Source: Deltaproteobacteria bacterium (lineage in GTDB: Bacteria; Myxococcota_A; Polyangia; Polyangiales; Houyiibacteriaceae). Taken from it: 64,000 nucleotides of DNA. Positions 58,227-63,663 of the stretch are shown here, piece after piece (within the stretch, counting starts at the first letter, position 1; each line of letters starts with the position of its first letter). The notes under the pieces are model-generated. The model was not told where the DNA came from and made no database searches. It saw only the letters and a list, made by a program, of their open reading frames with translations. The stretch lies in assembly GCA_004283055.1 (NCBI GenBank), contig SHLP01000001.1, forward strand, positions 55,941 to 119,940, given 5' to 3'. Both the position numbers and the translations under genes were made by a program.

Positions 58227-59333
58227 ATGGACTTTCAGCGCGCGCGGGCGTTGCTCGCGTTCTCAACTCTGATTCTGGTCGCTCCGCACCGCGCTCTGGC
58301 GCAGGCAACAATCGCCTTTGAGCCGGACCGCGACAATACGATCTACGAGGAGAGCGAAAACAGCAATGGCGCCGGGCCCATCGTTACCATTGGGCGAACC
58401 AGCGGCAGCATGAGCACCCTTTCGCGTCGTGGGCTCCTTCGCTTCGACGTAGCCGCGGACTTGCCCAAAGGCGCGACGGTGCAGAGCGCGACGCTGACCA
58501 TGGGCGTCAGCAAAGGGAACCCGGGTGCGCGAGACGCAGGCTTGCATCTCTTGACCGAAGACTGGGGCGAAGCGATGGCTTTCGCGACGGGCGGACAAGG
58601 GGTGCCCGCAACGGCCGGCGACGCGACGTGGACGTGCAGGTTCAGCGACGGTGCAGCTGGCTGCATGGCTGGCAATGCGTGGTCGGTTGCAGGCGGATCG
58701 TTCATGGCCACGGCGTCGGCCACTGCAACCGTCGGCGACGCTGGCGCTGGGGTGAGTTGGAGCTCCGCGCAGATGGCAGCGGATGTTCAAGGCTGGTCCG
58801 ATTTGCCTGAGTCGAACTCGGGATGGATCGTGATCGGTGTCGAAGACGTCACGAGCACGGCCAAGCAGCTCCACAGCCGGGAGGCCGAGGACCCGGCGAA
58901 TCGGCCCGAGCTCGTCATCGAGTATACGTGCCCTGATTTCGACGAGGACGGGCACGACAACATCGTTTGCGGTGGGACCGACTGCAACGACGAAGACGGC
59001 GCGATCAATCCCGATACGATGGAGGTTTGTGACGAGATCGACAATGATTGCGATCCGGCAACCGACGACATGGACGCGTGCAACACTGGCGCCGGAGGGA
59101 CCGCGGGGATAGGCGGCATGGCGGGAATGGGCGGAGAAGCCGGCGTTGGTGGAACGGCGGGGATGGGCGGCGCCATGGTTGACGGACCCAATTTGGGAGG
59201 CGGAGGAGGTTGCGCGGTAGGCCATCGCGGCAACGGCTCGCCGAGTTGGGCGTTCGTGCTCGCGGTCGCCGTCGTCCTGGCATCGCGGCGCTGCCGGGGT
59301 CTCCGACCACGGCGCTCGCTCCGCAGCCCGTAG
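58227..59333 (+). CDS. DNRLRE-domain surface protein with MYXO-CTERM-like tail
   Basis: A 368-residue secreted protein. After a signal peptide (ending ALA) comes a DNRLRE-type beta domain (DRDNTIYEESENSNGAGP, LRFDVAADLPKGATVQSATLTM, DWGEAMAF), then a putative metal-binding MopE-like segment (CPDFDEDGHDN...CNDEDGAINPDTMEVCDEIDNDCD), a GGMAGMGG hinge and a tail CAVGHRGNGSPSWAFVLAVAVVL followed by Arg residues, as in the MYXO-CTERM sorting signal. It ends 16 bases from the end of the convergent multicopper oxidase gene, which has the same DNRLRE domain, so they may have a common surface role. Confidence 0.78.
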   Translation: MDFQRARALLAFSTLILVAPHRALAQATIAFEPDRDNTIYEESENSNGAGPIVTIGRTSGSMSTLSRRGLLRFDVAADLPKGATVQSATLTMGVSKGNPGARDAGLHLLTEDWGEAMAFATGGQGVPATAGDATWTCRFSDGAAGCMAGNAWSVAGGSFMATASATATVGDAGAGVSWSSAQMAADVQGWSDLPESNSGWIVIGVEDVTSTAKQLHSREAEDPANRPELVIEYTCPDFDEDGHDNIVCGGTDCNDEDGAINPDTMEVCDEIDNDCDPATDDMDACNTGAGGTAGIGGMAGMGGEAGVGGTAGMGGAMVDGPNLGGGGGCAVGHRGNGSPSWAFVLAVAVVLASRRCRGLRPRRSLRSP

Positions 59334-59349: not shown

Positions 59350-62300
59350 TCACCCGTGGTCGGCGTCTTGTCGACGCCGGCGAAGATGACCGATGAACGG
59401 TACCAGAAGCAACAAGAGGAGCGTTGCAAGCGATCCACCGCCTCCTGCGCTGCAGTTGTTCGGGTCTCGCTCCTCGTTGATCCACGGGCGACCGATGCAG
59501 CGGGAGTCGACACCCGGTGTGAGTACCCCACCACTCGCCGAGGCTCCCCGATCAAAATCGGCCGCGCCATCCAGATCGTTGTCGATGCCGTCCTGACATT
59601 GCGGCGATTCGGTCGGGCTGCTCGCGTTGAAACAGCCTGGATCTCCCATGCCGGCGTGGAACGAGCCGGAGTCGTTGTAGGTCACAACGTCGAAGTCGAT
59701 GCGGCCGTCGCCATCGTTGTCGATGCCATCATCGCAGGGTAGTGCGGCGTCCTTTTCCGATTCATCGCTCGCAAATGCGCAGCCCGGATCGCCGCCACCG
59801 GCCTCACTGAAATCGGCGAGACCGTCGCCATCGTTGTCGAGACCGTCGCTGCAGTCATCGGTCTCGGAGAGGTCGTGCGGGCTCGTGCACTCGGGATCCG
59901 CGGGATAGTCGAAGAAGGTATCCCCGTCGTTGTCGACGCCATCTGAACAAGCTGTGATCGCGTTGAATTGACGCATCATCTCGTGGTCCTCGTGTTCGAG
60001 GATGTGGCAGTGATAGGAGAAAAGCCCTGCGTAGCCCTCGAAGCGCGCGATCACGCGGACGATCTCGTTGGGTCCCACTTGGACCGTGTCTTTCCAACCT
60101 GCCTCTTGAGGCGGAGGCGCTACCGGCGTGCCGATGGGCACCACGTCGCCGTCAATTTCGTCGAATGCCTGCCGATCGAGCACCTGAAACATCACGAGAT
60201 GCATGTGCATCGGGTGCGTCATCCCGGACCTGTTGATGAACGTCCAAATCTCGGTCGTCTCGAGGTCGGGAAACTCGGTGATGTCGTCCCATTTCGTATT
60301 TGGACCGGTCACCGGCACACCGTCGACGGCGGTTGACACGATCTCCCAGATGAACGGGCTGCAGGCGTCGCCAGGACCTTTCTCGAGCTCGAATTCCCGA
60401 ACGTGGACCGCGTCGGCCTCGTTGAGCACTTCCATCGAGCGAAGGCTCGTTGGCAGTGGATCGACGTGCCCCGCCTGCGCCTGAACGACGAACTTCATGA
60501 TATTGGGCACGACGCCCTCACCGGCTGCCCCAGGAAATGGCGCCGGGGCGCTGTTGACGAGGATGATCTCGGTTCCTGCAGGATAGCCCTCGAAGTCGAT
60601 CACTAGGTCCGCCCGTTCTCCTGGGCCAAGTGTAACTTCGTTGACGTTGACCGGCGCTGGCAGAAGCCCGCCCTCGGCGCCGATTTGGTCGAACGATGCG
60701 CCGTTGTCCAACGCGAGCGTATACGTGCGCGAGCCCGAGCCGTTCAGGAGGCGGAACCGATACTTGCCCTGCTTTACGTCGAGGAAGGGCCAGACCTTCC
60801 CGTTGACCAAAATCGTGTCGCCGAAAAACACCTCTTGCCAGTCGGCTGGATAGCTCAGCGAGCCGTCCGGGTTGAAGGCGCGGTCCTGAATCGCCAGCGG
60901 GATGTCGTAGTCTCGGGGCTGTCCGGGCACGCATTCGCCATCACAGGCGGGGAGCGCGAGGGCTTCTTCGACATTGTCGCGCAAAATGTAGACGCCTGCG
61001 AGCCCCATGTACACGTTCAGGCGCGTGATGCCGAGCGCATGATCGTGGTACCAGAGCGTCGCCGGCAGCTGAGCGTTCGGGTACTGGTACACGACCTGCT
61101 CTCCGGGCGGAAATGTGTCCTCCGGATATCCGTCGAATTCAGGCGCGACATGAGCGCCATGCAAGTGAACGACGGTCCATGCGTCCTTGTTGGCGAACGC
61201 ACCGTGGGGGCAGGTGTCGACCGGCAGGTAGTGGTCGGTTCGTAGAGGTGGAGGATTGCCCCCTACGCTCGTATCTCGAAGGTCGTTGGCCCAGGTCACG
61301 GTAACGGGCTTGTTGGTTCCCGCCTCGATCGTGGGACCCGGATACGAAGCGCTTGCTCCATCGCCATAGCCCCACACCGTCGTCGGGTTCGCGAGATCTC
61401 GATGGAGCTGTTGCTGCACCTCGCGCATCGTGAGCGTGTAACTCGCTGTGTCACCAGCTTCGCCCGTAGTCGGTTGGGCGACGGCCGGAATGGGCAACGA
61501 ATCGACGAACGGTGTCAGCACCACGGGACAGGGGTTGGGCGTACAGACCGTGAGCGCGCCGCTGAAGGTTCCGCCTTGGCCGTCGCACGTCGTCTGGTCG
61601 ACCTCGTTGCAGGTGGCAGTCGCGTCGGGCAGGCAGCAAGCACCGGTTGGAGGCGGGCAGGGGTTCGGGGTGCAGACACTGCCGTTGCCTTGGTAGGTGC
61701 CGCCCTGCGCCGTGCAATCGGAATCGCTGTTCGTGACGCCGCACGTTCCATCGATCGCGCAGCAGGCGCCACTCTGACCCCCCGGCGTGAAGTCGACCGT
61801 CAGAACCGGCCGGTCCTGAACCTTGCTGGCCGTACGGCTGTCGAACCGCTTGGCGGTTTCCGCGACGGCCTCGTTGCCCAGCAGCAGCCAGCCGAAGTCG
61901 GGTGCGTTGCCGTCGACCCAGGCTTGCACGTCGGCAACGAGCCCCGCGCCACTCCAAGTTACCAGCCCCTTCTGGGAGCCAACAGCAACGCTTCCGCTCG
62001 CCGTCCCGACGAAGTCACCGCCCACGGTCGCCCAAAACGTGCTCGGGTAGAACGTGTGGAGCCAGGTTGCATCACCCGGGGCCGCCGAGTCGCCTGCCCC
62101 GCCCTCTCCGCCGGCTTCGGAAGCTCCTTCGCCCCAGTCGGAGAGCAGGCGGTGGACGGTCACCACTTCCGTCCCCGCTTTGTTGCTCCTCGACACGCGG
62201 AGTGTCAGCGAGACGCTGTTGATCGTCGCACCTGCCGGAATGGAGCTCGTTGCGTCGAAGGCAATCACAGCCCGCCGCCGGCTATCCTCATCGCTCTGTG

Positions 62301-62466
62301 CCGTGCGGCCGACGAAGACACCCTCGCCCGCACCGTTGCTCAAGTCGCCCGAAGTGCTCTGGTACAGCGTGTTGTCCTTGGTTGCCTGCAGATCCACCTG
62401 GTCGGCTAGCGCAGCGGGAGCGAATCCGAAAACCACTAGTGCGACGATGACGGGGCTCCAGCGCAT
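59350..62466 (-). CDS. DNRLRE-multicopper oxidase fusion, surface-anchored
   Basis: A 1038-residue exported protein. Order: signal peptide (ending ALA), DNRLRE domain (about 24-235, TKDNTLYQSTSGDLSNGAG), two Cys-rich repeats (GACCAIDGTCG / GACCLPDATATC), a multicopper oxidase (about 330-830), four CxDGxDNDxDG units (for example CSDGLDNDGDGLADFSEAGG), and a C-terminal helix with Arg tail (LATLLLLLLVPF, RRRR). All copper motifs are visible: HLHGAHV, LWYHDHALG, HPMHMHLVMF and YHCHILEHEDHEMM, giving the Cys and His ligands of T1-T3 sites. The oxidase resembles CotA/bilirubin oxidase. ATG 62466 is the start. Likely oxidises metals or phenols outside the cell. Confidence 0.85.
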   Translation of the reverse strand: MRWSPVIVALVVFGFAPAALADQVDLQATKDNTLYQSTSGDLSNGAGEGVFVGRTAQSDEDSRRRAVIAFDATSSIPAGATINSVSLTLRVSRSNKAGTEVVTVHRLLSDWGEGASEAGGEGGAGDSAAPGDATWLHTFYPSTFWATVGGDFVGTASGSVAVGSQKGLVTWSGAGLVADVQAWVDGNAPDFGWLLLGNEAVAETAKRFDSRTASKVQDRPVLTVDFTPGGQSGACCAIDGTCGVTNSDSDCTAQGGTYQGNGSVCTPNPCPPPTGACCLPDATATCNEVDQTTCDGQGGTFSGALTVCTPNPCPVVLTPFVDSLPIPAVAQPTTGEAGDTASYTLTMREVQQQLHRDLANPTTVWGYGDGASASYPGPTIEAGTNKPVTVTWANDLRDTSVGGNPPPLRTDHYLPVDTCPHGAFANKDAWTVVHLHGAHVAPEFDGYPEDTFPPGEQVVYQYPNAQLPATLWYHDHALGITRLNVYMGLAGVYILRDNVEEALALPACDGECVPGQPRDYDIPLAIQDRAFNPDGSLSYPADWQEVFFGDTILVNGKVWPFLDVKQGKYRFRLLNGSGSRTYTLALDNGASFDQIGAEGGLLPAPVNVNEVTLGPGERADLVIDFEGYPAGTEIILVNSAPAPFPGAAGEGVVPNIMKFVVQAQAGHVDPLPTSLRSMEVLNEADAVHVREFELEKGPGDACSPFIWEIVSTAVDGVPVTGPNTKWDDITEFPDLETTEIWTFINRSGMTHPMHMHLVMFQVLDRQAFDEIDGDVVPIGTPVAPPPQEAGWKDTVQVGPNEIVRVIARFEGYAGLFSYHCHILEHEDHEMMRQFNAITACSDGVDNDGDTFFDYPADPECTSPHDLSETDDCSDGLDNDGDGLADFSEAGGGDPGCAFASDESEKDAALPCDDGIDNDGDGRIDFDVVTYNDSGSFHAGMGDPGCFNASSPTESPQCQDGIDNDLDGAADFDRGASASGGVLTPGVDSRCIGRPWINEERDPNNCSAGGGGSLATLLLLLLVPFIGHLRRRRQDADHG

Positions 62467-62667: not shown

Positions 62668-63663
62668 ATGTCTGACTCACACTGGCTGTCTTCCATCGCT
62701 CTCGGTCTCGCCTTCGTGCTTGCAGGGGCGGGCTGTTCTTCGGACGCCGCTTGGGAGGACGAGACCGGCTCGCTCAGCCTCGGCCTCGAAGTCGACGGCG
62801 TGATGATCAACACCGTCAGGTGGGTGATCACTGGCGAGGGAATGGAACCCATGGAGAGTGCGATCGACGTCAGAGCGCCCGGCTCCACTCCGAGCGTAGA
62901 GGTGTTTGGCCTCTTTCCCGGCGATTACGCGATCACGCTCTCCGCCACGGGAACGGACGAGCAGACGGAGTGCAATGGCTCGGAGAGCTTTTCGATCGAA
63001 GCCAACGAGGTGACGGACATCATGGTCATTCTGCGCTGCAAGCTTCCGGATCGCCTCGGCGGCGTGCGTGTCAACGGGGAGCTCAACGTGTGTGCCGAGC
63101 TCACCAAGATGGTCGTGTCGCCGCTTCAGGCCGCCGTTGGAGATCCCATCGATCTAAGGGCAGAGGCCGAGGACGCCGAGGGCGACGCGATCGCCTATCA
63201 ATGGACGGCCACTGGAGGCAGCGTCGCGAATGCAAGCGCCCCAGAGACGACGCACACGTGTGAGCAAGCCGGCGATCAGACGATTACGGTGACGGTGACG
63301 GACGACGAGGGGAGCTGCCAGGACGGGTGGACCGTCGACGTCACATGCGTGCTTGCCGACTGCCCGTGCTTCACGCTGGCCGACGTCTCCGCGATCGCCG
63401 CCGATCCGAGCTGTGATCCGATATGCGTCGAGGCGCGGCCAACGGGATTGAACCTGACGGCCCTGCAATGCTCGGTTACGCAGTTCGACTACTCGGCTGT
63501 CGTCGAGGAGCTCACGGACTTCGGAGGTGAGCCGCTCTGTCAGCTCAACTTGCCGCTCGCGGAAGAGTCGGTGGTCATCGTGGGACTAGCCGACAGCGAA
63601 GTGCTAGCCTGTCGAAACCTCGTGCTCGAAGCGGCCAGCATCGCTGGGTTGGACTGCCGCTAA
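62668..63663 (+). CDS. Lipoprotein with PKD/Ig-like domain
   Basis: A 331-residue lipoprotein with signal peptide and lipobox VLAGAGC. The N-terminal 120 residues are a beta domain with SLGLEVDGVMINTVRWVI and FGLFPGDYAITLSATG. A PKD/REJ-like domain follows (VGDPIDLRAEAEDAEGDAIAYQWTATGGSV, DQTITVTVTDDEGSC). The last 100 residues are Cys-rich (CVLADCPCFTLADV, CDPICVEARP) and unfamiliar. Function is unknown, probably surface adhesion. The start at ATG 62668 is chosen for the lipobox; the divergent multicopper oxidase start lies 201 bases away. Confidence 0.72.
   Translation: MSDSHWLSSIALGLAFVLAGAGCSSDAAWEDETGSLSLGLEVDGVMINTVRWVITGEGMEPMESAIDVRAPGSTPSVEVFGLFPGDYAITLSATGTDEQTECNGSESFSIEANEVTDIMVILRCKLPDRLGGVRVNGELNVCAELTKMVVSPLQAAVGDPIDLRAEAEDAEGDAIAYQWTATGGSVANASAPETTHTCEQAGDQTITVTVTDDEGSCQDGWTVDVTCVLADCPCFTLADVSAIAADPSCDPICVEARPTGLNLTALQCSVTQFDYSAVVEELTDFGGEPLCQLNLPLAEESVVIVGLADSEVLACRNLVLEAASIAGLDCR

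Follow-up and report, generated by a model that had tools for sequence, protein, structure and literature searches.

This locus raises the question of why a laccase-type oxidase should carry at its N-terminus a domain that recalls a carbohydrate-binding module, and where such a protein would work. Carbohydrate-binding modules are usually described on sugar-cutting enzymes; here a fold of this kind precedes an oxidase, and the unit is kept across several phyla whose members are nearly all known from metagenomes. The window, i.e. the whole stretch of 64,000 nucleotides that was analysed (contig SHLP01000001.1 of the Deltaproteobacteria assembly GCA_004283055.1), contains one such gene.

Architecture and recurrence of the fusion

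The original prediction had placed a DNRLRE domain in fusion with a multicopper oxidase at this position, and family scans recovered the open reading frame together with all of the named domains (Table 1). The protein reads, in order, signal peptide, DNRLRE domain, two six-cysteine GACC modules, CotA-family oxidase, four acidic-disulfide repeats and MYXO-CTERM tail; the GACC modules (together residues 233-314) are an addition to what had been named before.

Table 1. Features of the oxidase gene and of its two neighbours; positions are those of the window.
Feature	Position	Strand	Remarks
Whole gene, DNRLRE-Cys-CotA-type multicopper oxidase with MYXO-CTERM	59350..62466	(-)	1038 aa; ATG at 62466, stop codon end at 59350
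Signal peptide	62404..62466	(-)	MRWSPVIVALVVFGFAPAALA-D junction; cleavage site by eye; counterpart N-terminal signals in relatives
DNRLRE domain, CBM96-like predicted fold	61783..62403	(-)	Residues 22-228; NF033679, AF2 model, PDB matches
GACC six-cysteine module 1	61651..61770	(-)	Residues 233-272
GACC six-cysteine module 2	61525..61644	(-)	Residues 275-314
CotA-family multicopper oxidase	59962..61518	(-)	Residues 317-835; Pfam Cu-oxidase_2 and Cu-oxidase_3; 1gsk
Copper ligands HLHG	61156..61167	(-)	
Copper ligands WYHDH	61039..61053	(-)	
Copper ligands HPMHMH	60199..60216	(-)	HPMH-H usual in fusion clade
Copper ligands HCHILEHEDHEM	59977..60012	(-)	T1 Cys, His, axial Met
Four acidic double-disulfide repeats (CxDGxDNDxDG)	59467..59955	(-)	NF033662
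MYXO-CTERM	59353..59460	(-)	Signature Cys, hydrophobic helix, RRRR; genome-scan score
Tail-to-tail neighbour	58227..59333	(+)	368 aa; DNRLRE, MopE-type motif, Gly-rich stretch, MYXO/JDVT-like tail
Divergent neighbour	62668..63663	(+)	PKD protein ending in unannotated 'CPCF' domain (63346-63660)

Relatives were gathered from 290 genomes of the class that were searched and, by a scan, from a genome collection, the records of which are all metagenome-assembled genomes (MAGs); the set also includes genomes G131, G280, G262 and G143. After removal of duplicates, 43 non-redundant loci have the DNRLRE domain ahead of the oxidase, and the full architecture recurs among them. As recorded, these loci belong to Planctomycetota (mostly Phycisphaerae), Myxococcota, Acidobacteriota, Verrucomicrobiota and Gemmatimonadota, and all or nearly all of them come from MAGs. 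The GACC modules intervene in nearly every locus, L081 being without them. Comparison of the window with the relatives L051, L038 and L053 gave dN/dS values of about 0.07-0.17, i.e. purifying selection acts on every domain. Because the full architecture recurs in 43 loci of one clade and each domain is under purifying selection, a chance, one-off or chimeric fusion is ruled out. Foreign base composition was also considered and rejected: the GC content of the gene (63.5%) matches that of the window (63.3%) and therefore gives no sign of recent transfer.

The oxidase domain

The oxidase domain aligns end to end with CotA of Bacillus subtilis (1gsk, E 5e-109), its closest solved relative. The copper sites were predicted to be intact, and all four ligand motifs of Table 1 were indeed found, so that every T2/T3 histidine motif and the T1 Cys-His-Met set are present; the T1 cysteine, whose absence would have spoken against the prediction, is among them. 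The motifs are complete in all 43 fusions, the one in the window included. Judged by its sequence, the gene product belongs to the CotA laccase family of copper-dependent oxidases. The likeness to CotA extends, by eye, to residues D116 and E498 of that enzyme. However, CotA is a single-domain spore-coat protein of Bacillus, whereas the oxidase of the window is flanked by the DNRLRE domain, cysteine modules, repeats and a sorting tag, and it has HPMHMH where CotA has HPIHLH. The model of the phenoxazinone synthase/o-aminophenol oxidase PhsA (NF045554) also matches the whole domain, but at 318.7 bits it stays far short of the 950 bits required of an equivalog. Elsewhere in the same genome lies a gene for another, distant multicopper oxidase, which has 671 residues and no DNRLRE domain (G000:C258, L046:7371-9383).

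The N-terminal domain and the cysteine modules

The DNRLRE model NF033679 matches residues 37-224 with 59.0 bits against a curated cut-off of 34, and at E 0.001 it matches 32 out of 32 aligned family members. An AlphaFold2 model of residues 20-316, built from an alignment of 31 sequences, has a mean pLDDT of 92.5. Its best match in the PDB is 8wab, the chondroitin-sulfate-binding module of a chondroitinase (E 8e-8), followed by the founder of the CBM96 family, the alginate-binding module 7vbo (Foldseek E 7.3e-7, probability 1.00, TM 0.67 by target length). After these two, the model matches the prodomains of BMP/TGF-beta (4yci, E 2e-5), and Pfam TGFb_propeptide finds 9 of 31 DNRLRE family members (best 2e-4).

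The CBM96 paper puts the identity of 7vbo to DNRLRE domains at about 30%, names Arg36 as central to alginate binding with certain lysines that matter too, and lists alginate, hyaluronate and pectate lyases among the proteins with other DNRLRE/CBM96 domains (PMC9971899). In the alignment through 8wab the equivalent of Arg36 is R64, and this position appears basic (Arg/Lys) throughout the family. By eye, few of the lysines important in 7vbo look conserved in the window domain, and the ligand may therefore differ. Whereas the predicted fold agrees with 7vbo and 8wab and NF033679 scores above its cut-off, identity to the two modules is about 18%, and the module is fused to an oxidase, not to a lyase. 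Pfam CBM96 (PF24517) matches 19 of 31 family members (best 1.2e-10), but it does not recognise the domain of the window. The modelled match to two solved polysaccharide-binding modules supports the proposal that the N-terminal domain targets the enzyme, and on this model the fusion would be a CotA-type laccase joined to a CBM96-like module.

The two GACC modules between this domain and the oxidase may form a disulfide-rich connector. A profile search with the cysteine modules gave, after the DNRLRE match, the extracellular Cys-rich regions of human iRhom1 and iRhom2 (E 0.28), and a fold search returned iRhom1/iRhom2 as its top four matches (E 0.16). These matches align with the GACC cysteine pattern; they are two weak, partly independent signals.

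Repeats, sorting tail and predicted surface display

Calcium-binding repeats were originally thought to hold the enzyme at the cell surface. We had to abandon the repeats as the anchor: they match the family acid_disulf_rpt (58.6 bits with NF033662, cut-off 41, three stretches scored), with CxDGxDND copies seen by eye to start at four places, residues 840, 872, 911 and 957, and the anchor is the MYXO-CTERM tail. It is more likely that the repeats serve as a spacer.

A C-terminal anchor as such had also been predicted, and a MYXO-CTERM tail was indeed recovered: against a cut-off of 20 it scores 25.2 bits when the whole genome is scanned and 18.7 when the whole protein is. The same genome encodes the myxosortase MrtC (236.8 bits against an equivalog cut-off of 195) and the type II secretin GspD (485.1 bits against 351), the sole type II secretion gene that was sought. 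For TraA of Myxococcus xanthus, a myxosortase is described as cutting the MYXO-CTERM, and type II secretion has been proposed as the route to the surface (PMC11980579). The window protein resembles TraA-like surface proteins in having both a signal peptide and a Cys-helix-Arg tail, with MrtC in its genome; the myxosortase studied in M. xanthus is, in contrast, MrtX. Because the MYXO-CTERM tail, MrtC and a type II secretin occur in one genome, surface display of the oxidase is predicted, and by analogy with TraA it is well supported. Together with the complete copper set, this agrees with the original picture of a CotA-like oxidase predicted to sit at the cell surface.

Neighbouring genes and the second DNRLRE domain

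The genome of the window has two DNRLRE domains in total, both at this locus, in genes that are 16 bases apart. The genome G203 likewise has just two, again both at the locus. A stand-alone DNRLRE gene lies nearby in 8 of the 43 loci, counting the window, and 2 more have two DNRLRE domains in cis; with these numbers a universal DNRLRE gene pair is ruled out. In the DNRLRE tree, many branches of which are weak, the partner domains fall mostly into groups of their own, and they are therefore not apparent recent copies of the fused domain. Outside the 43 loci, two MAGs couple another CotA lineage with a DNRLRE unit (L115:7728-12047 and L121:2794-7422), which is an independent association of a CotA lineage with this domain. 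In these two MAGs the oxidase and the DNRLRE protein share one frame with no intervening stop; the oxidase ends in a PEP-CTERM-like stretch and the DNRLRE part has its own signal peptide.

An all-against-all comparison of the neighbouring ORFs found no gene common to most loci, and a conserved operon is thereby ruled out. Common to the closest Myxococcota subclade only is the gene directly upstream of the oxidase with its C-terminal CPCF domain of about 105 residues; it occurs in the six nearest loci (the window, L051, L038, L053, L054 and L055). In L055 the CPCF domain is fused behind the partner DNRLRE. No gene adjoining the oxidase was found that points to a polysaccharide or a metal.

Proposed function and alternatives

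In multicopper oxidases electrons enter at the type-1 copper and oxygen is reduced to water at the trinuclear site. We think it probable, with moderate confidence, that the protein is a secreted CotA-type laccase or metallo-oxidase of the myxobacterial outer surface, in which the DNRLRE domain holds acidic polysaccharide and the sorting tag is exchanged according to the host. The signal peptide would export the protein; by analogy with TraA, the MYXO-CTERM would be lipidated on its cysteine and then cut by MrtC, and type II secretion would move the product to the cell surface. There the acidic-disulfide repeats would act as a disulfide-stabilised spacer and the GACC modules as the connector, while the CBM96-like module, its fold predicted, might keep the enzyme attached to an acidic polysaccharide, which could belong to the matrix of the cell itself or be a polymer of the environment. 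As in other members of the family, the type-1 copper would take electrons from small phenols or metal ions and the trinuclear site would pass them to oxygen, giving water.

What the substrate might be was also addressed by the original prediction, which named manganese or lignin. Either activity is possible for an oxidase of this sequence; none of the sequence features tested tells the two substrates apart, and we give manganese oxidation and phenol or lignin oxidation similar odds. One could imagine chiefly a Mn(II) (or Fe) oxidase, for which an acidic polysaccharide held by the DNRLRE domain would concentrate Mn2+ and serve as a template for the oxide on the cell surface. CotA of Bacillus pumilus is reported to oxidise Mn(II) (PMC3618234), and seven fusion loci carry OFTM isolate names (L057, L059, L061, L064, L070, L077 and L084). 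A study of an Fe/Mn biofilm of the Oslofjord tunnel reports manganese oxidase genes in 15 of 29 Planctomycetota MAGs, by a gene search that included cotA (PMC10732223). Since the OFTM names match the naming of these MAGs, some of the relatives probably come from manganese-oxidising tunnel biofilms, which we regard as an ecological lead. On the other hand, ordinary laccases belong to the same family and the Fe/Mn habitat holds for part of the clade, so a chiefly manganese-oxidising role is rather unlikely, if worth keeping in mind. We are equally tentative about a lignin- or humic-active laccase docked on the polysaccharide of plant or algal cell walls. The occurrence of related domains in polysaccharide lyases (PMC9971899) and the chondroitinase module as nearest fold would fit such a role, but the ORF comparison around the loci, in which neighbours were not individually annotated, gave no recurrent carbohydrate-active gene, and an enzyme tethered to its own cell would more readily act on small diffusible substrates or mediators than on a solid wall.

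The DNRLRE domain could instead serve for self-assembly or for binding a partner, so that the oxidase would form one surface complex with the DNRLRE protein encoded next to it. The second DNRLRE genes and cis tandems described above, the restriction of the domain to the locus in two genomes, the separate pairing in L115/L121 and the likeness of the fold to TGF-beta/BMP prodomains all speak for such a complex; however, most loci with good flanks are without a second DNRLRE, and so is the closest relative, L051, within 2.7 kb upstream and 8 kb downstream. We consider it unlikely. A cuprous oxidase that serves copper tolerance, like CueO, is very improbable: the CueO model (NF008205) does match part of the oxidase domain, but with 189.2 bits it stays far under the equivalog cut-off of 525, no Met-rich insert of the CueO type is seen by eye (10 Met among the 519 oxidase residues), the closest solved relatives are CotA, and display on the outer surface would be ill-suited to periplasmic Cu(I) detoxification.

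The polysaccharide-held surface oxidase remains our preferred reading. If its binding is true, uncultured Planctomycetota and Myxococcota would have in it a means of retaining an extracellular oxidase in the biofilm matrix, and a specific enzyme could be proposed for the oxidation of manganese or phenols that is ascribed to such communities. It can be taken further: the whole clade might consist of polysaccharide-bound surface oxidases of several phyla that form a two-part complex with the second DNRLRE protein, in trans or in cis, and might be a main catalyst of Mn(II) or phenol oxidation in uncultured Planctomycetota/Myxococcota biofilms. This extended version is highly speculative and we doubt that it holds in full. 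A literature search, with most subscription journals outside its range, found no account naming both DNRLRE and multicopper oxidase. The parts are known; what we found no description of is their stable combination, the range of phyla in which it occurs and the way in which tags are exchanged.

Phylogeny and probable exchange of sorting tails

In the oxidase tree the fusions fall in one clade with an SH-aLRT of 99 (short search, support without bootstrap), which also holds three Sedimentisphaerales proteins without this DNRLRE. The Myxococcota members are scattered within the clade, which suggests that the fusion passed between phyla. The domain is also patchy within the genus of the window; taken with the tree, this pattern suggests an older transfer.

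The head of the protein is conserved and the C-terminal sorting tag varies by host lineage. In classes assigned by eye, most Myxococcota loci have acidic-disulfide or CGDG repeats with MYXO-CTERM-like tails, Planctomycetota loci have dockerin-like repeats or PEP/IPTL-like tails, and L056 has a T9SS-like tail. The closely related L038 and L053 are mostly 95-100% identical at the DNA level in the head and 52-85% near the oxidase/repeat boundary. Such a drop points to an exchanged tail, although an assembly error is possible because the contig of L053 is short. We think it probable that the phyla inherit the head as one unit and that the tag is swapped to fit the sorting system of the host, which would make these proteins a clear natural case of a fixed working head with host-specific surface tags.

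Two further observations concern single members of the set. L085, L086 and L087 are giant Sedimentisphaerales proteins, and in L085:5958-14801 (2948 aa) a CotA-type oxidase shares one chain with matches to a GlxA-like radical copper oxidase and to plastocyanin. L091 carries a cyanobacterial name (Leptolyngbya sp. PLA1); its protein is almost identical to that of the Phycisphaerales locus L068, and the genome is probably misnamed or misbinned.
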